Assembly: GCA_025997215.1 (NCBI GenBank)
Contig: BNUH01000017.1
Location: forward strand, 1-50,862
Length of the DNA stretch: 50,862 nt
From: Clostridia bacterium
Lineage (GTDB): Bacteria; Bacillota_A; Clostridia; Christensenellales; Aristaeellaceae
Reading direction: 5' to 3'
Positions 16,381 through 50,690 of this stretch are shown piece by piece; within the stretch, counting starts at the first letter, position 1, and each line of letters opens with the position of its first letter. The translations under genes were made by a program, and so were the position numbers. The notes beneath the pieces were generated by a model. It did no database searches, had not been told where the DNA came from, and saw only the letters and a program-made list of their open reading frames with translations.

Positions 16381-16445
16381 ATAACACGTAGCATAAATCT
16401 ACAGAATTCGGCGGGACGTTCCCCCTTGCCCAGGAACCGCCAAAT

Positions 16446-16640
16446 AGAATAACAGCAGGTCTCCTGGCTTATGACTGGGATTTATAACAATCCCCACGGA
16501 AGCCCTTCTCAGGCAATCGCCCAATGGTTAACGCTTCCGGTTAAGTCAATCACAGTAATGGCTGTTGCGCCGGATTCACACCGACTTCCCTTTTCACCCG
16601 CGCCAGATGCCCGGCGCGGAAACTGCGCAATATTTAGTTG
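16446..16640 (-). ncRNA. Cobalamin riboswitch
   Basis: The minus-strand RNA carries the cobalamin aptamer marks: GGGAAGTCGGTGTGAATCCG, then GCAACAGCCATTACTGTGA (B12-box variant), and the 3' closing element GCCAGGAGACCTGC (16468-16455). It lies between a sigma-A promoter (16650-16678) and the terminator before btuF. Boundaries are approximate. With promoter, riboswitch and terminator it accounts for nearly all of the 366-bp gap 16318-16683. Confidence 0.92.
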
Positions 16641-42497: not shown

Positions 42498-42524
42498 CCG
42501 GAGCGGATGCAGCGGCCGCTCCGG
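42498..42524. terminator. Bidirectional terminator between convergent genes
   Basis: CCGGAGCGG and CCGCTCCGG form a perfect 9-bp stem with a 9-nt loop. It lies between the Cys-rich gene (plus) and the 57-residue gene (minus). The minus side is more T-rich (TTATTCATTTG). Confidence 0.6.
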
Positions 42525-42542
42525 TCAAGCCCGACAGATAAT

Positions 42543-42716
42543 TTAGTTATCCCCGGCGAGGTAATTATCCAGGAAGGTGCGCAGCTCGGTCCAGGAGCGG
42601 ATGTCGCGGGCGTGTTCGCGGACGCTGTCCTTGGCGTAGTCGGGCAGCTTGTCGTAGTAGTCGCGTGCGCGCGAATCGCGCGAGAGCAGGGCGTCCAGAT
42701 TCTGGTAAATGGACAT
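42543..42716 (-). CDS. Small hypothetical helical protein
   Basis: A 57-residue protein (MSIYQNLDALLSRDSRARDY, then YDKLPDYAKDSVREHARDI...). AAGGAGG is 6 bp before the ATG at 42716; the frame is open to 42761. The sequence has the look of short clostridial proteins in which a LP-x-x-A/V-K-x-S-V-R/M helix-turn recurs. Function unknown. It reads toward the Cys-rich gene and shares the terminator with it. Confidence 0.6.
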   Translation of the reverse strand: MSIYQNLDALLSRDSRARDYYDKLPDYAKDSVREHARDIRSWTELRTFLDNYLAGDN

Positions 42717-42845
42717 GCAAGGCCTCCTTTGTTCGGTAGGGTTGGATAAGTTGGCAAACATAGATGGTGTTATCAGCCATAGTATGTGACACAGGAGGGT
42801 TTTGCATCCAAAAGACTAGGACTATTTGCTAAGACGCATAAACGT

Positions 42846-42878
42846 TTGCAATTGCCATACAATAGTGGTACAATACCA
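42846..42878 (+). promoter_or_regulatory. Promoter and operator of the toxin-antitoxin pair
   Basis: TTGCAA (42846-42851), a 17-bp spacer, TACAAT (42869-42874). The -10 lies inside a perfect palindrome TGGTA-CAA-TACCA (42866-42878), a likely binding site for the antitoxin, which autorepresses in this family. Confidence 0.75.
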
Positions 42879-42896
42879 TACAGAGGGGTGATAAGC

Positions 42897-43172
42897 ATGG
42901 CATCGACAAGTGTAACCATCCGACTGGACGAGGATTTGAAGCAAAGAGCCGAACGTTTTCTTGATGACATTGGAATGAACATGACGACAGCCGTAACAGT
43001 TTTTTTGAAGGCGGCGTTACGCAAGGGACGCATCCCGTTTCAGCTGGAAGCTGATCCGTTCTGGTCGGAAGAGAATCAAGCGTATTTGCGGCATGCCGCC
43101 GTGCTGATGGATTCGGGCGGACACGCCGTGATAAAAACTCTGGATGAGCTTGAGGCGATGGAGAATGATTAA
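42897..43172 (+). CDS. RelB/DinJ-family antitoxin
   Basis: A 91-residue antitoxin. N-terminal ribbon-helix-helix (STSVTIRLDEDLKQRAERFL, then DDIGMNMTTAVTVFLKAAL) is diagnostic for RelB/DinJ; the C-terminal half (WSEENQAYLRHAAVLMDSGG) should wrap the toxin. I place the start at 42897 after AGAGGGGTG; the longer open frame begins before the promoter. Its end overlaps the toxin gene by 8 bp. Confidence 0.92.
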   Translation: MASTSVTIRLDEDLKQRAERFLDDIGMNMTTAVTVFLKAALRKGRIPFQLEADPFWSEENQAYLRHAAVLMDSGGHAVIKTLDELEAMEND

Positions 43173-43431
43173 GGTAACATTCTTCGAGTCAGCGTTTGAT
43201 GAATATATGTCGTGGCAAGAAGAGGACAAGAGAACGCTTAAGCGCATTAATCGTCTTATAAAAGATATACAACGTAACGGATACGATGGTATAGGCAAGC
43301 CGGAACCGCTCAAAGGCGACTTGCAAGGATGGTGGTCAAGGCGAATTGATGATAGTAATCGCCTTGTTTATCGGTTGAGTGACGATGGAATCGAAATCCT
43401 GCAATGCAGCACGCACTACCACGATGAATAA
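43165..43431 (+). CDS. yoeB: YoeB-family mRNA interferase toxin
   Basis: An 88-residue toxin closely following E. coli YoeB: WQEEDKRTLKRINRLIKDI, KPEPLKGDLQGWWSRRID, NRLVYRL. The YoeB catalytic set appears intact: Glu47 in KPEPL, Arg66 in NRLVY and His84 near the C-terminus. YoeB cuts mRNA on the ribosome. The start at 43165 overlaps the antitoxin. In most systems YoeB pairs with a YefM antitoxin; here the antitoxin is of RelB/DinJ type, a hybrid pairing. Confidence 0.92.
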   Translation: MIKVTFFESAFDEYMSWQEEDKRTLKRINRLIKDIQRNGYDGIGKPEPLKGDLQGWWSRRIDDSNRLVYRLSDDGIEILQCSTHYHDE

Positions 43432-43451
43432 TAATTATAACACGCTTTAGA

Positions 43452-43510
43452 TTGACAGGCTGGCGGTTGAGATGGTATACTTACCTCATCGTGAATGTGT
43501 ATCATGATAC
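43452..43510 (+). promoter_or_regulatory. Strong promoter with palindromic operator before the leader ORF
   Basis: TTGACA (43452-43457), an 18-bp spacer, extended -10 TGG-TATACT (TATACT 43476-43481). A perfect 12-bp palindrome GTATCATGATAC (43499-43510) lies at about +12 to +23, where a repressor would block elongation or open-complex escape. Confidence 0.75.
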
Positions 43511-43546
43511 TAACATAATTAGTAAGTTAGAAAGGAGGTGAGCGGG

Positions 43547-43750
43547 ATGAATCGCACGTGCTTTATGAGCGGCGGTACGGTGTTTGAGCATCTGGAATGT
43601 ATCCAGGGCTACGCGTTCAACGCGGCCATTGTTGGGGAGAAGTCTGCCCTTTTGTCGGTTCGCTGTGCGGATTATGCGGCTGAAGGGGAGAAGTCTGCCC
43701 ATTTTTACCGTGTCGGATGCCGCTCGCCTCGTAAGGTTATAACCGTGTGA
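43547..43750 (+). CDS. Small leader ORF upstream of the ABC transporter
   Basis: A 67-residue ORF starting MNRTCFMSGGTVFEHLECIQ, with an excellent ribosome binding site (AAAGGAGGTGAGCGGG). It includes an in-frame direct repeat: the 16-bp GGGGAGAAGTCTGCCC occurs at 43634-43649 and 43685-43700, encoding GEKSA twice. Four Cys are present (positions 5, 21, 40 and 57). There is no signal peptide or known family. The stop codon TGA (43748-43750) lies at the tip of a hairpin (43731-43763) and is followed by an intrinsic terminator. It may be a regulatory leader peptide or a small functional peptide; translation looks likely, function unknown. Confidence 0.55.
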   Translation: MNRTCFMSGGTVFEHLECIQGYAFNAAIVGEKSALLSVRCADYAAEGEKSAHFYRVGCRSPRKVITV

Positions 43751-43763
43751 CGGTTTAACTTAC
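43731..43763 (+). promoter_or_regulatory. Hairpin enclosing the leader-ORF stop codon
   Basis: GTAAG-g-TTA-t-AACCGT, GTG loop, ACGGTT-TAA-CTTAC: a 14-bp stem with two bulges whose loop and closing base hold the TGA stop. A terminating ribosome would melt it, so it could couple translation to the terminator 8 bp downstream. Confidence 0.55.
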
Positions 43764-43771
43764 GTTTGACG

Positions 43772-43800
43772 CCGGGCATTCGGACGGATGCCCGGTTTTC
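43772..43800 (+). terminator. Intrinsic terminator between leader ORF and ABC genes
   Basis: CCGGGCAT/ATGCCCGG 8-bp stem with 8-nt loop followed by TTTTCGTTT. Since no promoter is seen between it and the ABC genes, read-through here would set their expression. Confidence 0.82.
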
Positions 43801-43833
43801 GTTTGCCCATTTATCTATAAAGGGGTGACTCCT

Positions 43834-44601
43834 TTGGTCAAATATTACCAATCGGCGCGCATGATGTGCCTGGCAAAACTCAACGGCGGCATATTAGGTA
43901 TGCTGCCCGACCTATTCATCAAGGCGTGCACGTTGATCGCACAGATATACGTTTGGCGCAGCGTCATGATGTCCGGCGTCGATGTGGACATGACGATGCC
44001 GCAGATGCTTAGTTACGCATACTTAAGCGTCATGCTCTCCGACCTGATGGTCGTGGAAACGCAAGCGTCCGGCTGGCTGTCCGAGGGTGTGCTGATGAAG
44101 ATGTACGGCCGGCCGCTCTCCGTACTCGGTCAGTTGGCTGCTGAGACCGTCGGCCGCTGGATACCGACGCTGCTGCTGTTCTCGCTGCCCATGGCGCTCG
44201 TGTCGCCATGGATCGGCGTGAGTTTGGTTCCGGCGACATATTGGTTCTGGGTTAGCTTGGTTCTATGCGTATCATTAGGATTCGCGATGGACTTCATGTT
44301 CGCTTGCCTCTCTATCAAGCTGCGCAACATGAATTGGCTGGTAAGCCGCATCCGGCTCGGCATTACCGCGCTATTTTCCGGCGCTGTCATACCCATCCAG
44401 CTATTGCCGGAAGGGGTAGGCCGCGTGATGCTGTACCAGCCGTTCGCGAGCATGGGCGGCGCACCGCTGTCGCTGTTTGTCGGATCGATGGATCCTGGGC
44501 GGATTATCCCGTTACAATTATTATGGAACATAGTGCTGTGGCCAGCCGCACTGCTCATCTGCAAAAAATCGCAGGAAGGGATGGTCAGTTATGGAGGCTA
44601 A
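43834..44601 (+). CDS. ABC-2-type transporter permease (first subunit)
   Basis: A 255-residue membrane protein with about six transmembrane segments and no ATPase domain. The sequence FACLSIKLRNMNWLVSRIRL followed by ITALFSGAVIPIQLLPEGV and GRVMLYQPFASMGGAPLSLFVG matches the two-permease exporter family in which one subunit is of the ABC-2 membrane class. I favour the TTG at 43834, 8 bp after AAAGGGG; a GTG at 43825 has no room for a ribosome binding site. It overlaps the second permease gene by 11 bp. Export substrate unknown. Confidence 0.82.
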   Translation: MVKYYQSARMMCLAKLNGGILGMLPDLFIKACTLIAQIYVWRSVMMSGVDVDMTMPQMLSYAYLSVMLSDLMVVETQASGWLSEGVLMKMYGRPLSVLGQLAAETVGRWIPTLLLFSLPMALVSPWIGVSLVPATYWFWVSLVLCVSLGFAMDFMFACLSIKLRNMNWLVSRIRLGITALFSGAVIPIQLLPEGVGRVMLYQPFASMGGAPLSLFVGSMDPGRIIPLQLLWNIVLWPAALLICKKSQEGMVSYGG

Positions 44602-45463
44602 CGTTTCACATTTCAAAACGTTATATAAGACTATACGCCGCATAATCGGACTGCTTGGCATGTCTGCGCGGATGGATTTGGCTTGGCTGCTGCGCGATAC
44701 GAAGTTCGCGCTGGTCGGCATCACGGGCGACTTCATATTCAACATCAGCACGTTGTCCAGCATTTACCTGATCGCGCTGCGATTCGGCGGGATCGGCGGC
44801 ATGAGTACGGACGAGGTGCTGTTCATGCTGGGTTTTTCGACATTAACCACGGGGTTGTTTATACTGTTCGGTGCGTCGAACAACTTCTACATCAGCCGGA
44901 TTATCGGGCGTGGGCAGCTCGATCACCTGTGGATGCAGCCGCTTCCGCTGTGGATGCAGCTGTTTACGAGCGGGTTTATACCATTCACGGGCGGTGGGAA
45001 TTTCCTCGCAGGCATAGGAGTGATCGTCTACTCAACCAGGCGCTTGGGGCTTGCGGTAACTCCGCAGTGGCTCGTTATGCTGGCTGCGTATGCCCTATGC
45101 TCGGTGGCGATAGTTGTAGCACGGTCGTACCTGGTTTCCACCGCCGCGTTCTACGCGCCCGTCGCCGCGGAGGAGATCGCAACGACGGCCATCAACGGCA
45201 CGTGGATGCTAAGCACATTCCCGTTATCCGGCGTACCGCGCTGGCTGCAATGGTCGCTCATCACCATACTGCCCGAGGGTTTGATGGCCTGGTTCCCGTC
45301 GCTGGCGTTGCTGGGCAAGCCGCCGATGGGCTTGACAGCCGTGTACCCATTCGCGTATGCGTTAATAATTACATTAGCATCATACTTTGTATTTCAGAAA
45401 GGAATGAGGCACTATGTCCGCACGGGTTCAAATAGATATGTCCCATTTGGATTCCGCCGTTGA
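44591..45463 (+). CDS. ABC-2-type transporter permease (second subunit, DUF990-like)
   Basis: A 290-residue membrane protein with about six segments. ARMDLAWLLRDTKFALVG near the N-terminus, then RIIGRGQLDHLWMQPLPLWM and LSGVPRWLQWSLITILPEGL, are typical of the DUF990-like permease that pairs with a shorter ABC-2 subunit. The ATG at 44591 lies within the end of the first permease gene, and its own end overlaps the ATPase gene by 50 bp, so the three proteins are made in a tight stoichiometric unit. Confidence 0.85.
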   Translation: MEANVSHFKTLYKTIRRIIGLLGMSARMDLAWLLRDTKFALVGITGDFIFNISTLSSIYLIALRFGGIGGMSTDEVLFMLGFSTLTTGLFILFGASNNFYISRIIGRGQLDHLWMQPLPLWMQLFTSGFIPFTGGGNFLAGIGVIVYSTRRLGLAVTPQWLVMLAAYALCSVAIVVARSYLVSTAAFYAPVAAEEIATTAINGTWMLSTFPLSGVPRWLQWSLITILPEGLMAWFPSLALLGKPPMGLTAVYPFAYALIITLASYFVFQKGMRHYVRTGSNRYVPFGFRR

Positions 45464-46430
45464 GGTTAAGGATTTGACGAAAACCTTCCTGCAATGGCAG
45501 CGCGACCAGACGGCGAAGGGGATACTGCGCAACCTGATCCACCCTGAAAAGAAAACCGTCGCCGCGCTGTCGAACGTATCCTTCAGCATCAAGAAGGGCG
45601 AGTTCGTGGCCTACGCCGGGCCGAACGGCGCTGGCAAATCCACCACGATGAAACTGCTGGGCGGAATGTTATTGCCGAATAATGGTAATATAACCGTACT
45701 GGATTACGAGCCGCACCGCCAGCGCGCCGAGCTGATGAAGCGGCTGGGCATACTGTTCGGCAACCGCACCGAGCTGTGGTGGGATCATCCCGTGCGCCAA
45801 TCCTTCGAGTGGAAGCGGGTGGTGTGGGATATACCTGCCGATACGTACCGCCGGAATCTCGACATGACCGTGGAATTGCTGGATATCGGCGGGCTGCTCA
45901 AGACCTTCGCACGGGAATTGAGCCTAGGCCAGCGGATGCGGTGCGACCTGGCGATGCTGCTGCTGCACAGCCCGGAATTGTTATTGCTGGATGAGCCGAC
46001 CCTGGGTCTGGACGTGGTGGCCAAACGGCAGATGATCGAATTCCTCAAGAAAATCAACCGCGAGGATGGCGTGACGATCATGGTCACCAGCCACGACATG
46101 GACGATCTGGAGGAGATGGCGCGGCGCGTGCTCATGATTGCCGACGGGAAGATCGCGTTTGATGGGGATTTCGACGGGCTTCGACGGATTACGGGGAATC
46201 TGTCGCGAGTACGGGTGAGTCTGGCGGATGGTGTGAGCACGCCCAATATTGACGGAGGATCGCTGATATCCAGCGAACGCGGGGTATTCGAATATGAAGT
46301 GGACTTTGAAAAAACCTCCGTGACATCGATGCTGGCGCGGCTGTCACAAACGGGAGGCGTGCGCGACCTGGAGATCCAGAAAGCGCCGATTGAACAGGTG
46401 ATTGCGCAACTATACAAGCGCTGGGCGTGA
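45414..46430 (+). CDS. ABC transporter ATP-binding protein
   Basis: A 338-residue ATPase. Walker A GPNGAGKST at residues 69-77, signature ELSLGQRMRCDLAMLLLHSP, Walker B LLLLDEPTLGLD, and the switch His in VTSHDMDDLEEMARR. The sequence before Walker A (FLQWQRDQTAKGILRNLIHP) is a long insert typical of ATPases that serve the paired ABC-2/DUF990 exporters. A C-terminal domain of about 80 residues follows the ATPase core. It energises the two permeases encoded just upstream. The ATG at 45414 follows AGAAAGGAATGAGG. Confidence 0.92.
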   Translation: MSARVQIDMSHLDSAVEVKDLTKTFLQWQRDQTAKGILRNLIHPEKKTVAALSNVSFSIKKGEFVAYAGPNGAGKSTTMKLLGGMLLPNNGNITVLDYEPHRQRAELMKRLGILFGNRTELWWDHPVRQSFEWKRVVWDIPADTYRRNLDMTVELLDIGGLLKTFARELSLGQRMRCDLAMLLLHSPELLLLDEPTLGLDVVAKRQMIEFLKKINREDGVTIMVTSHDMDDLEEMARRVLMIADGKIAFDGDFDGLRRITGNLSRVRVSLADGVSTPNIDGGSLISSERGVFEYEVDFEKTSVTSMLARLSQTGGVRDLEIQKAPIEQVIAQLYKRWA

Positions 46431-46476
46431 CAGCCGCCCTTTGTCGAACGATTGGCGTGAATTGACAAAATAATCG

Positions 46477-46505
46477 GCAGGAGAATCCGCGTGGCGAGCG
46501 AATTA
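46477..46505 (+). promoter_or_regulatory. Sigma-H-like promoter of the spoIIA operon
   Basis: GCAGGAGAA (46477-46485), an 11-bp spacer, AGCGAATTA (46497-46505), close to the Bacillus sigma-H pattern RNAGGAWWW-N11/12-RNNGAATWW (one mismatch). The spoIIA operon is a sigma-H/Spo0A target in Bacillus. Confidence 0.65.
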
Positions 46506-46536
46506 TTACAACTCACCTTTGTACGGAGGATGTAAC

Positions 46537-46842
46537 ATGCTCAAGCACGCGCGCCAAGGCAACACGCTGACGGTCCGGCTGGACGGCGAGCTGGATCAGG
46601 ACAGCGCCACGCGTATCCGCCAGGAGCTGGACGACCTGATAGCGGATACGCGTGTGAAACACCTGGTACTGGATATGCAGGGGCTTACGTTCATGGATAG
46701 CTCGGGGATCGGTGTCGTGATCGGGCGGTACCGCACACTGGCCACGCGCGGAGGCGGCGTGGCTGTGCGCGGCGAGAGCGCGCATGTCGAGCGGATCATG
46801 AAGCTGTCCGGGCTGTATTCCATATTGGAGCAGGCCCGATAA
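46537..46842 (+). CDS. spoIIAA: Anti-sigma F factor antagonist SpoIIAA
   Basis: A 101-residue STAS-domain protein. The phosphorylated serine motif is FMDSSGIGVVIGRYR, with Ser55 equivalent to Bacillus Ser58. Unphosphorylated SpoIIAA frees sigma-F from SpoIIAB in the forespore. The start at 46537 follows GGAGGATGTAAC; the frame opens at 46519. First gene of the classic spoIIAA-spoIIAB-sigF operon. Confidence 0.96.
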   Translation: MLKHARQGNTLTVRLDGELDQDSATRIRQELDDLIADTRVKHLVLDMQGLTFMDSSGIGVVIGRYRTLATRGGGVAVRGESAHVERIMKLSGLYSILEQAR

Positions 46843-46873
46843 TCATTCTGGCATTATATAGGAGGTCGGCGGC

Positions 46874-47362
46874 ATGCTTGGTAGGCCGGAGATGACGAAC
46901 CGGATCGGCAACCGGATGAAGGTCCGAAACCATATGCGGCTGGTATTTGACAGCCGCAGCGAGAATGAGTCGTTCGCCAGAGTGGTGGTGAGCGCATTCA
47001 TGGCGCAGCTCTCGCCCACCATCGAGGAGCTGAACGACGTTAAGACGGCTGTCAGCGAGGCGGTAACAAACGCGATCGTGCACGGTTATCGCGGATCGTT
47101 CGGGGATGTGGAGATCGAAACAGCGCTGACGGACGATGGTTATGTTGTTATAGAGGTTTCGGACGCGGGCTGCGGCATTGAGGATGTGGAGCAGGCAATG
47201 ACGCCGTTCTTTACATCCCAGCCGGAGATGGAGCGGGCCGGGATGGGGTTCGCGGTCATGCAGACGTTCATGGATGAGCTGAACGTGGAGTCGCACGTCG
47301 GAGAAGGCACGCGCGTCACGATGCGCAAGCGGATCAGCCATGGCACTGACGGCGACAAATGA
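46874..47362 (+). CDS. spoIIAB: Anti-sigma F factor SpoIIAB
   Basis: A 162-residue GHKL-type serine kinase that binds sigma-F and phosphorylates SpoIIAA. N-box EAVTNAIVHGY, G1 box VSDAGCGIEDV, and GMGFAVMQTFMDEL for ATP binding. AGGAGG precedes the ATG at 46874. It overlaps sigF by 23 bp. The extra N-terminal residues (about 14) before KVRNHMRLVF are unusual, and a start at residue 15 cannot be excluded. Confidence 0.96.
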   Translation: MLGRPEMTNRIGNRMKVRNHMRLVFDSRSENESFARVVVSAFMAQLSPTIEELNDVKTAVSEAVTNAIVHGYRGSFGDVEIETALTDDGYVVIEVSDAGCGIEDVEQAMTPFFTSQPEMERAGMGFAVMQTFMDELNVESHVGEGTRVTMRKRISHGTDGDK

Positions 47363-48101
47363 CGGGCTGGCCAGCCCGGATACCGCCGATTATGCGCTGG
47401 GGGATCAGAACGCGCTGATCCTGGCGGCGCAGTCGGGCGACGCCGCTGCGATGGCCGAGTTGGTGGAGCGGCACATCAAGCTGGTGCATGCCGCCGCGAA
47501 GCGTTTTAAGGGCGCGGACGCCAGCGAGGTCACGCAGTCGGGATGCGTCGGCTTGGTCGAGGCGATCCGGCGATTCGACACAGGACGCGGGGTGAGGTTT
47601 TCCACCTACGCGGTGCCGTATATTTTGGGGGAGATACGGCATTATCTGCGGACGGACCACGCGATGCACATTCCTAGGCGTTTGCAGGATGCCAGCCGCG
47701 AGGCCGCGCGAGCATCGGCGATGCTGACGGCACGGCTAGGCCGAGAGCCGACGGTGCCAGAGATCGCGGCGGAACTGAACATGTCGCCGGAAGAATTAGC
47801 GCTGGCGCTGGAAAGCCGGGCGGCACCCGTGTCGCTGGACGCGCCAATAGGCATGGAGGACGACACGCCGATGCATGAGTCATTGGGCGACGCGGCGTCG
47901 GGGATGTCGTTCGAGCGGGTTGACGTGCGGGATATATTGGAACGCTGCGAACCAGAGGAACGCGCGCTGCTGACGATGCGATTCTTCCGGGGCATGAGCC
48001 AGTCGGACGCGGCGCGGGTGCTGGGCATCAGCCAGCCCCAGGCTAGCCGCATGGAGAAACGCATCCTGGCCAGGCTGCGCAAGGAGGCGGAGAGCGCGTG
48101 A
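47340..48101 (+). CDS. sigF: Forespore sigma factor SigF
   Basis: A 253-residue sigma-70 family protein, the first forespore-specific sigma factor. Region 2: SGCVGLVEAIRRFDTGRGVR followed by FSTYAVPYILGEIRHYLR. Region 3: EPTVPEIAAELNMSPEELAL. Region 4: EERALLTMRFFRGMSQSDAA followed by RVLGISQPQASRMEKRIL. Position after spoIIAA-spoIIAB separates it from sigma-G. Translation starts inside spoIIAB. A terminator-like hairpin follows. Confidence 0.95.
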   Translation: MALTATNDGLASPDTADYALGDQNALILAAQSGDAAAMAELVERHIKLVHAAAKRFKGADASEVTQSGCVGLVEAIRRFDTGRGVRFSTYAVPYILGEIRHYLRTDHAMHIPRRLQDASREAARASAMLTARLGREPTVPEIAAELNMSPEELALALESRAAPVSLDAPIGMEDDTPMHESLGDAASGMSFERVDVRDILERCEPEERALLTMRFFRGMSQSDAARVLGISQPQASRMEKRILARLRKEAESA

Positions 48102-50041: not shown

Positions 50042-50094
50042 TTTTTTATTCTGTTTCCCTCCGGGGGTTTTGGGTTCGTCCTCTGCCGAGGGGT

Positions 50095-50644
50095 TGCCCT
50101 CACTGCGGTGAGGGACTTGTTACTTTTCCCGTCCGTGGGAAAAGTAACCAAAAGGACGGCCAAAGGAGAGAGGCGCTATGGCGCCCTCTCTCCTCTGGAC
50201 TCCTTTCTCCAGCCATGTTGCACCCGCACCTTGGTCTATGACCAACGTTCCGATTGATTTACAAGCACTGTGTTGCAGGGTTCTCGCGGCTTCGCGGCGA
50301 GGTAGTCGCATTGGCGAGGCGTGGCATTATCATTATATAATCGTAACGCGCCCCTGCTATCAACTTCGGATCATCTAAGCACGTATACAAACAATACGAA
50401 ATCATAACAGACCAACGCCGCCATCTTTAGATTATCTAGGATTTCAAGTAAACAATATGATGCCAAAGACCTGCAACACTGTGCTACTCTGGATGTAGTT
50501 TGTTTGGTTTCATGCAGCAGGTGCAATATTGAGGAGGGAGAGTCCAGAGAGGGAGGGCACAGCTGCCCTCCCTCTTTGGCCGTCCTTTTGGTTACTTTTC
50601 CCACGGACGGGAAAAGTAACAAGTCCCTCACCACAGTGAGGGCA
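50095..50644. repeat. 550-bp inverted-repeat structure with nested hairpins
   Basis: Arms 50095-50210 and 50534-50644 are inverted copies over about 110 bp, nearly identical for 70 bp. Each arm encodes three hairpins: CCCTCAC/GTGAGGG, GTTACTTTTCCC/GGGAAAAGTAAC, and a GGAGAGAGG-type or GGGAGGGCA-type stem. The interior (50211-50533) carries an inner inverted pair GCACTGTGTTGCAGG (50265-50279) and CCTGCAACACTGTGC (50470-50484; one mismatch) and no convincing ORF. No clear target duplication was found. With the next feature it fills most of the non-coding stretch 50042-50862. Confidence 0.8.
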
Positions 50645-50690
50645 GTCCGCCCGCAGGCGATGGGATTCGCATATTGTCAATAACAAGTGA

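Follow-up and report, generated by a model that had tools for sequence, protein, structure and literature searches.

A candidate ribosome-responsive attenuator leader upstream of ABC exporter and ABC-F-type genes in Clostridia

The exporter locus and its leader

The window, i.e., the whole stretch of 50,862 nucleotides analysed in the present study (contig BNUH01000017.1 of a Clostridia bacterium), harbors an ABC exporter operon encoding two permeases and an ATPase, preceded by a leader whose elements are collected in Table 1. The class of the exporter was assigned by Pfam, and it may be a drug-type exporter. With its TTG start, permease 1 has 255 aa, the length of most relatives among the matches listed; for permease 2, a search for solved relatives gave none that was significant. 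Genes for a RelB-type antitoxin and a YoeB-type toxin (Pfam matches) lie directly 5' of the leader at 42897-43431, and the three genes 3' of the exporter (46519-48101) are, from their translations, presumably similar to spoIIAA, spoIIAB, and sigF. Elsewhere in the window, a cobalamin riboswitch over the Rfam gathering score was found on the - strand at 16437-16639, and an 83-nt inverted repeat (50083-50165 / 50574-50656, 93% complementary) near the right end may, at a guess, be a small mobile element.

Table 1. Features of the leader and the exporter operon (positions within the window)
Feature	Position	Strand	Basis or remark
Promoter, extended -10 (TTGACA-18-TATACT, TG present)	43452..43481	+	11/12 consensus matches in scan
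12-bp palindrome GTATCATGATAC	43499..43510	.	formerly "operator"; no conservation
Shine-Dalgarno (SD) AAAGGAGGTGA of leader ORF	43531..43541	+	most columns (near-)invariant in 20 leaders
P1 5' arm, RBS side, putative anti-antiterminator	43535..43545	+	pairs with 43720-43730
Leader ORF, 67 codons	43547..43750	+	open frame, relatives, weak purifying selection
Repeat copy M1, GGGGAGAAGTCTGCCC then TTTT	43634..43649	+	small hairpin and U run
Repeat copy M2	43685..43700	+	in frame with M1
Antiterminator 5' arm, within ORF	43708..43721	+	pairs with 43775-43787
P1 3' arm, anti-RBS	43720..43730	+	2-nt overlap with antiterminator 5' arm
Stop-codon hairpin, TGA at tip	43730..43764	+	stop touches hairpin loop in 22/27 leaders
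Intrinsic terminator and U run	43771..43799	+	stem 43771-43796
Antiterminator 3' arm = terminator 5' arm and loop	43775..43787	+	
SD of permease 1	43819-43828	+	
ABC exporter permease 1, ABC2_membrane_6-like, TTG start	43834..44601	+	21.4 bits, cut-off 22
ABC exporter permease 2, PF06182 ABC2_membrane_6	44591..45463	+	Pfam
ABC exporter ATPase, PF00005	45414..46430	+	top NCBIfam match drrA, under its cut-off

All parts named in the original prediction were recovered in the sequence, among them the strong extended -10 promoter, the 67-codon ORF with its strong RBS, the 16-bp direct repeat within it, and the hairpin carrying the ORF stop codon at its tip. The ABC genes were also said to have no promoter of their own, in agreement with a + strand scan that stayed empty from 43482 to the exporter start, the next + strand promoter-like site (44837) falling inside coding sequence. 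Promoter-like sites with at least 10/12 matches occur in 13 of 19 related leaders, all ending 17-23 nt 5' of the RBS motif; in the window the promoter ends about 51 nt 5' of it. Such scanning is weak alone, as positions 42500-46500 gave 8 promoter-like sites (4.0 in shuffles) and 2 terminator-like sites (likewise 4.0 in shuffles). Since the latter count is not above chance, the case for the terminator rests on the relatives, where it is conserved with two-sided changes; it was correctly placed after the hairpin, except that the gap is 6 nt, not 8. Contact between stop codon and hairpin loop was seen in 22/27 leaders at the true position, in 25 at a shift of +5, and in 0-5 at the remaining shifts. 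As a whole, the 316-nt leader folds better than 100/100 shuffles (z -5.6).

The proposed palindromic operator fared differently: the palindrome exists, but palindromic 12-mers of this sort number 16 in the window, and a 10-bp palindrome within 75 nt upstream was present in only 1/19 related leaders, there differing from GTATCATGATAC. For want of conservation among the relatives, we discarded the operator.

Allowing up to 3 mismatches, GGGGAGAAGTCTGCCC occurs in the window at the two repeat sites only, against 0.26 expected, and at least 2 sites were reached in 3/100 shuffles. M1 and M2 are identical at 20/22 positions in the window and at 10-18/22 in 19 relatives, so that the perfect 16 bp appear as the local extreme of an old duplication. 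The repeats stay in one reading frame, with a motif like [CS]A[LH][LF] by eye. The M1 segment folds below shuffles (z below -1) in 16/20 leaders and M2 in 12/20, and M1 is a possible RNA polymerase pause site. A dispersed repeat was rejected as well, as GGGATAACTGCGCCCATTT was found, at up to 2 mismatches, at most once per genome, in 6/15 genomes. The exact double repeat was absent from the viral contigs searched; one contig of the viral collection (L032) carries an exact GGGATAACTGCGCCCATTTT at L032:5711-5730. It shares M2 and a few residues, and what comes next is, by eye, a terminator-like repeat and then another gene.

Distribution of the leader family

Through the alignment of permease 1 relatives we collected 25 genome loci, all of them MAG records according to their titles. 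Permease 1, permease 2, and ATPase are consecutive in 22 of them; L002 and L003 end early, and L025, with a partial permease only, was left out of the leader count. Window excluded, the leader (RBS motif and ORF) is present in 19 of the 24 exporter loci examined, and promoter, ORF with RBS, the helices P1 and antiterminator described below, terminator, and exporter operon follow one another in a fixed order common to the relatives. The RBS motif is missing from L006, L010, L020, L021, and L024. By eye, remnants of a leader persist in L010, and that of L024 (L024:2541-2783) is divergent, resembling the ABC-F subtype described below. The latter precedes an exporter permease 46% identical to that of the window, a case which hints at leaders being exchanged between targets.

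An ORF of 42-67 codons starts from the RBS in 20/20 exporter-type leaders (42-76 codons across 27 leaders), and its frame into the P1 arm is intact in 16/20. The peptide consensus, drawn by eye, reads MNIxxFxSxGxVFxNCECIKGYAFKNAAxWVKCALLPVICAxFGLLRDNCAHFxRIECLLPHxxPA. The earlier statement that this peptide belongs to no known family stands for Pfam, Rfam, and the single-sequence search, which returned only the window's own peptide from 5.8 billion proteins. A profile was thus needed, and one built from 20 peptides does find relatives, namely 78 proteins (the window and 77 relatives), with 66 of the 77 relatives spanning 63-69 residues in a search that admits only 0.55-1.75x the query length. 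One of them, Sgly_2657 of Syntrophobotulus glycolicus, is the same peptide as that of L087, whose leader precedes an exporter. The peptide found no match in viral contigs, the plasmid search gave none, and among phages a single short match, to a tail gene, turned up in two records of the same phage. Rfam returned nothing for the window leader even at E 5, and nothing in the 12 exporter loci (of 25) that were scanned.

The leader is sparse among the genomes searched, being found in 9/295, 4/391, 5/18, 2/3, 2/58, 5/196, and 3/398 genomes of overlapping sets, where the 9/295 include L041, a match (E 1.9e-4) taken as chance. Judged by record titles, it occurs in several families of Clostridia, mostly uncultured. 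Three copies, L044, L052, and L089, lack the usual target in the stretch examined, and that of L089 is broken by a stop codon.

With a codon alignment built through the ORF frame, dN/dS is about 0.5 in frame, while pN/pS is near 1 in the other frames. The close pair L008/L011, with 12 synonymous vs 15 non-synonymous differences, looks selected, and the pair L002/L003, with 4 vs 13, looks neutral; together these values suggest weak purifying selection on the leader peptide. Near the ORF end, frameshifts were found in L008, L009, L011, and L018, and also in L056 of the other subtype. As the frameshifted leaders preserve most nucleotides of both RNA arms, not the residues, what is conserved at the 3' end of the ORF seems to be the RNA, with a looser hold on the peptide. 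The reading frame survives large deletions in L005, L012, and L055.

Two long-range helices

Beyond the parts listed in the original prediction, the leader contains two long-range helices. P1 pairs the RBS side with the end of the ORF, and the antiterminator pairs a segment within the ORF with the 5' arm and loop of the terminator. In 20 leaders, 95.0% of 220 cells are paired for P1 (41-71% in slid controls) and 85.7% of 252 cells for the antiterminator (28-47% slid), comparisons biased in favour of the helices over their slid versions, as both were spotted by inspecting these same sequences. The pairing level of P1 was reached by 6/500 shuffles; the window has a two-sided change there from A-U to C-G, and one pair is broken in 6/20 leaders. 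For the antiterminator, 0/500 shuffles equalled the pairing and 2/500 the covariation score, while neither the number of two-sided changes nor that of pair types stood out from shuffles (195/500 and 181/500). In L008 and L011 the alignment columns miss pairing that is visible by eye, and these leaders were counted unaltered.

The antiterminator also accounts for the sequence of the terminator loop, for which no other role is evident: it reads TTCAAACGG in 9/19 relatives and TTCGGACGG in the window, where the 5' arm is altered to match. The duplex with its own partner beats the mean of same-type partners in 19/20 leaders (the exception being L017) and other-type partners in 20/20. With shuffled partners as reference, z averages -3.1 over the 20 exporter leaders, although seven of these, including the window, lie above -2, and in the window 27/300 shuffled partners pair equally well. 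As in leader-peptide attenuators, an ORF with its RBS stands upstream of an intrinsic terminator, and the antiterminator reuses terminator sequence. P1 and the antiterminator overlap by only 2 nt, which counts against the attenuator model proposed below.

Folding with ribosome footprints

Each RNA was folded up to and including the antiterminator 3' arm, i.e., without the terminator 3' arm, holding 31-nt ribosome footprints unpaired. These folds are at equilibrium, and as a footprint on the start site removes P1 by construction, they are compatible with a ribosome-controlled switch and no proof of it. In the 20 exporter-type leaders, the mean antiterminator probability went from 0.18 with no ribosome to 0.51 with a ribosome on the start codon, rising by more than 0.05 in 15/20 leaders and falling in none; in the window it went from 0.00 to 0.64, the gain being lost from codon 7 on. 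The seven leaders of the second subtype behaved alike (0.03 to 0.65, up in 6/7 and down in 0, with no rise in L088). A ribosome on the antiterminator arm brought the mean to 0.00, and one on the stop codon gave 0.20 in exporter-type leaders. In contrast to the original prediction, the candidate switch sets P1 vs the antiterminator, and among the ribosome positions folded the start site mattered most, rather than the stop hairpin.

The behavior is not uniform. In L001-L003 and L014 the antiterminator dominates even without a ribosome; there was no rise with a start-site ribosome in L001, L005, L008, L011, and L016, and in L013, L017, and L023 the antiterminator rose only slightly, staying at or below about 0.1. 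Moreover, the full-length RNA at equilibrium gives an antiterminator probability of 0.00 in 20/20 leaders, the terminator winning regardless, so that the model needs kinetic capture, in which the antiterminator forms first and holds.

Related leaders before ABC-F-type genes

Divergent leaders were found before an ABC-F-type gene in six genomes (L038, L039, L054, L055, L056, and L088). The full-length protein of L057, the same gene as that of L038, scores 489 (cut-off 380) as 'ribosomal protection-like ABC-F' of NCBIfam. Among four partial proteins, those of L055 and L088 pass, and those of L054 (377.9) and L056 (355.8) fall short of 380; the protein of L039 is 75% identical over 212 residues. 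The scanned proteins pass or approach the broad NF000355 model, and the named resistance subfamilies listed for L057 score far under their cut-offs.

The antiterminator of this subtype departs from that of the exporter type in its arm sequences as well as its register, with GATTGTTTTGA opposite loops resembling TCAAAACAATC, and 94.8% of 77 cells are paired in the six leaders and the orphan L052, vs 29-52% when slid; as its 5' arm is invariant, shuffles cannot test it. Against shuffled partners, the duplex reaches a mean z of -5.2 (7 leaders), with the own pairing above the same-type mean in only 4/7. P1 is paired in 66/77 cells, L054 and L088 pairing where the other five mismatch.

In one genome (G015) both types share a contig, the exporter-type leader lying about 19 kb from the ABC-F-type one. 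Of 30 ABC-F loci, a leader was seen only at L057 (the same place as L038); L058-L086 gave no match to the leader profile, including the locus of a 65% identical ABC-F in G062, which ties the leader to one ABC-F clade and not to ABC-F at large.

Discussion

We propose, with fair confidence and from sequence comparison, that the leader is a ribosome-mediated transcription attenuator, which probably senses translation arrest at or near initiation. When the RBS is free of ribosomes, P1 would disfavour the antiterminator and transcription would end at the terminator. When translation is unimpeded, the leading ribosome would cross the antiterminator arm, and the terminator would form too. Upon an arrest at or near the start codon, or when ribosomes queue behind a later stall, the RBS would be occupied and P1 could not form; the antiterminator would then arise ahead of the terminator 3' arm, and the exporter would be transcribed. 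As trigger one would expect a ribosome inhibitor that interferes with initiation or early elongation; the exporter would presumably remove it, while the ABC-F protein of related genomes would presumably act on the ribosome. The translation-sensitive attenuation originally predicted is supported in its core by the conservation of the family, by an antiterminator, and by a helix that sequesters the RBS and competes with this antiterminator in the folding runs, and it changes in its details. The accompanying idea of a ribosome-targeting compound as signal gains support from the related leaders before ABC-F-type genes.

The kind of switch is a known one. The systems below are described as far as excerpts of the cited papers go, and their common logic is that arrest on an upstream ORF (uORF) favours an antiterminator or frees the gene. 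The bmrB leader of bmrCD in Bacillus subtilis comprises a 162-nt ORF with a predicted terminator, antiterminator, and anti-antiterminator, and its response to lincomycin is ribosome-dependent (PMC4191407). Like the present leader, it precedes an ABC exporter, in that case one for drugs; its terminator, however, lies inside the ORF, whereas that of the window is 3' of the stop-codon hairpin, and BmrCD is described as a heterodimeric exporter, in contrast to the window, where two permeases and an ATPase each have their own gene. For the ABC-F gene vmlR of B. subtilis, uORF arrest blocks an anti-antiterminator so that the antiterminator forms, the uORF having three codons within the anti-antiterminator hairpin (PMC9226507); in the window, by contrast, the RBS has its partner about 185 nt downstream, where the 67-codon ORF draws to its end. 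The ABC-F gene cplR of Clostridioides difficile, induced by retapamulin or lincomycin, has a three-codon uORF (consensus MR[I/M]) and a terminator whose hairpin also hides the cplR SD (PMC10201436). In Listeria monocytogenes, rli80/hflXr places a small ORF, an anti-antiterminator, an antiterminator, and a terminator before a ribosome-recycling resistance gene (PMC6310831); this ORF has 14 codons and an RLR motif, none of which is seen by eye in the window peptide. In Streptomyces, uORFs of 3 and 9 residues precede the ABC-F genes are5sc and tiaA, their RBSs overlap antiterminator hairpins, lincosamide-type drugs stall ribosomes at their start codons, and a tiaA transcription reporter was constitutive (PMC12421871). 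A collection of 205 ABC-transporter attenuator candidates has also been reported (PMC2965389, seen in excerpt), and it may include the present family. Among mostly open papers, judged by title and abstract opening, none was recognised as describing the leader; the family, found named nowhere, would on that ground be new.

An elongation-stall sensor is plausible, though we lean against it. Here a drug, or arrest by the nascent peptide, would halt ribosomes within the ORF (e.g., at the CALL or CAHF repeats), leaving the antiterminator arm exposed and a queue reaching back to the RBS. This is the same kind of switch with another stall site, and our confidence in arrest at the start site does not exclude it. 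It would suit the length of the ORF across the 27 leaders, as opposed to the three codons described for vmlR and cplR in the excerpts, and the in-frame repeats; covering the start site and M1 together brought the mean antiterminator probability to 0.60 in the exporter type and 0.69 in the second subtype. With just one ribosome, placed near M1 and about 70 nt 5' of the antiterminator arm, the values were only 0.27 and 0.05, and L005, L012, L055, and L056, short by roughly 14-24 codons (in L056 with the loss of a repeat), retain their RNA arms.

Quite improbable, in our view, is a functional small protein whose terminator ends its own transcript, the exporter living on constitutive read-through. 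The peptide length shared by most relatives, within the range that the search admits, would fit, yet the five frameshifted leaders alter the last residues with the RNA arms largely staying, and the antiterminator complementarity would be left without a role. A metabolite riboswitch, with P1 closing an aptamer and the ORF incidental, appears slightly less probable still: a structured domain closed by P1, and a leader that folds better than shuffles, would allow it, against which stand the lack of an Rfam match in the window leader, a weakly conserved interior where deletions of about 42-72 nt are tolerated, and the RBS, start codon, and ORF of at least 42 codons in all 20 leaders with the frame mostly running into the P1 arm. 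Least probable is an amino-acid attenuator, which would most likely respond to cysteine starvation. Although cysteine makes up 6.9% of 20 exporter-type leader peptides, no single-codon run is seen, Cys and Ser interchange at the repeats, five ABC-F-type leaders have only 2-3 cysteines, and neither target is an amino-acid gene.

Returning to the proposed attenuator that would sense arrest near initiation, a wider and rather speculative picture, which we hold unlikely as a whole, would have one attenuator family, its leader peptide long and conserved, wiring two unrelated defences, ABC exporter and ABC-F, to the same natural ribosome inhibitor of presumed anaerobic communities, with RBS occupancy read directly through the helix between the RBS and the distant ORF end, and the two in-frame repeats serving either to pause the polymerase or as motifs for peptide arrest. 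More immediately, one type of leader stands before two kinds of candidate ribosome-drug defence. As a marker, the leader may therefore guide searches for more defence genes, and it lends itself to reporter tests of which compound these bacteria sense.
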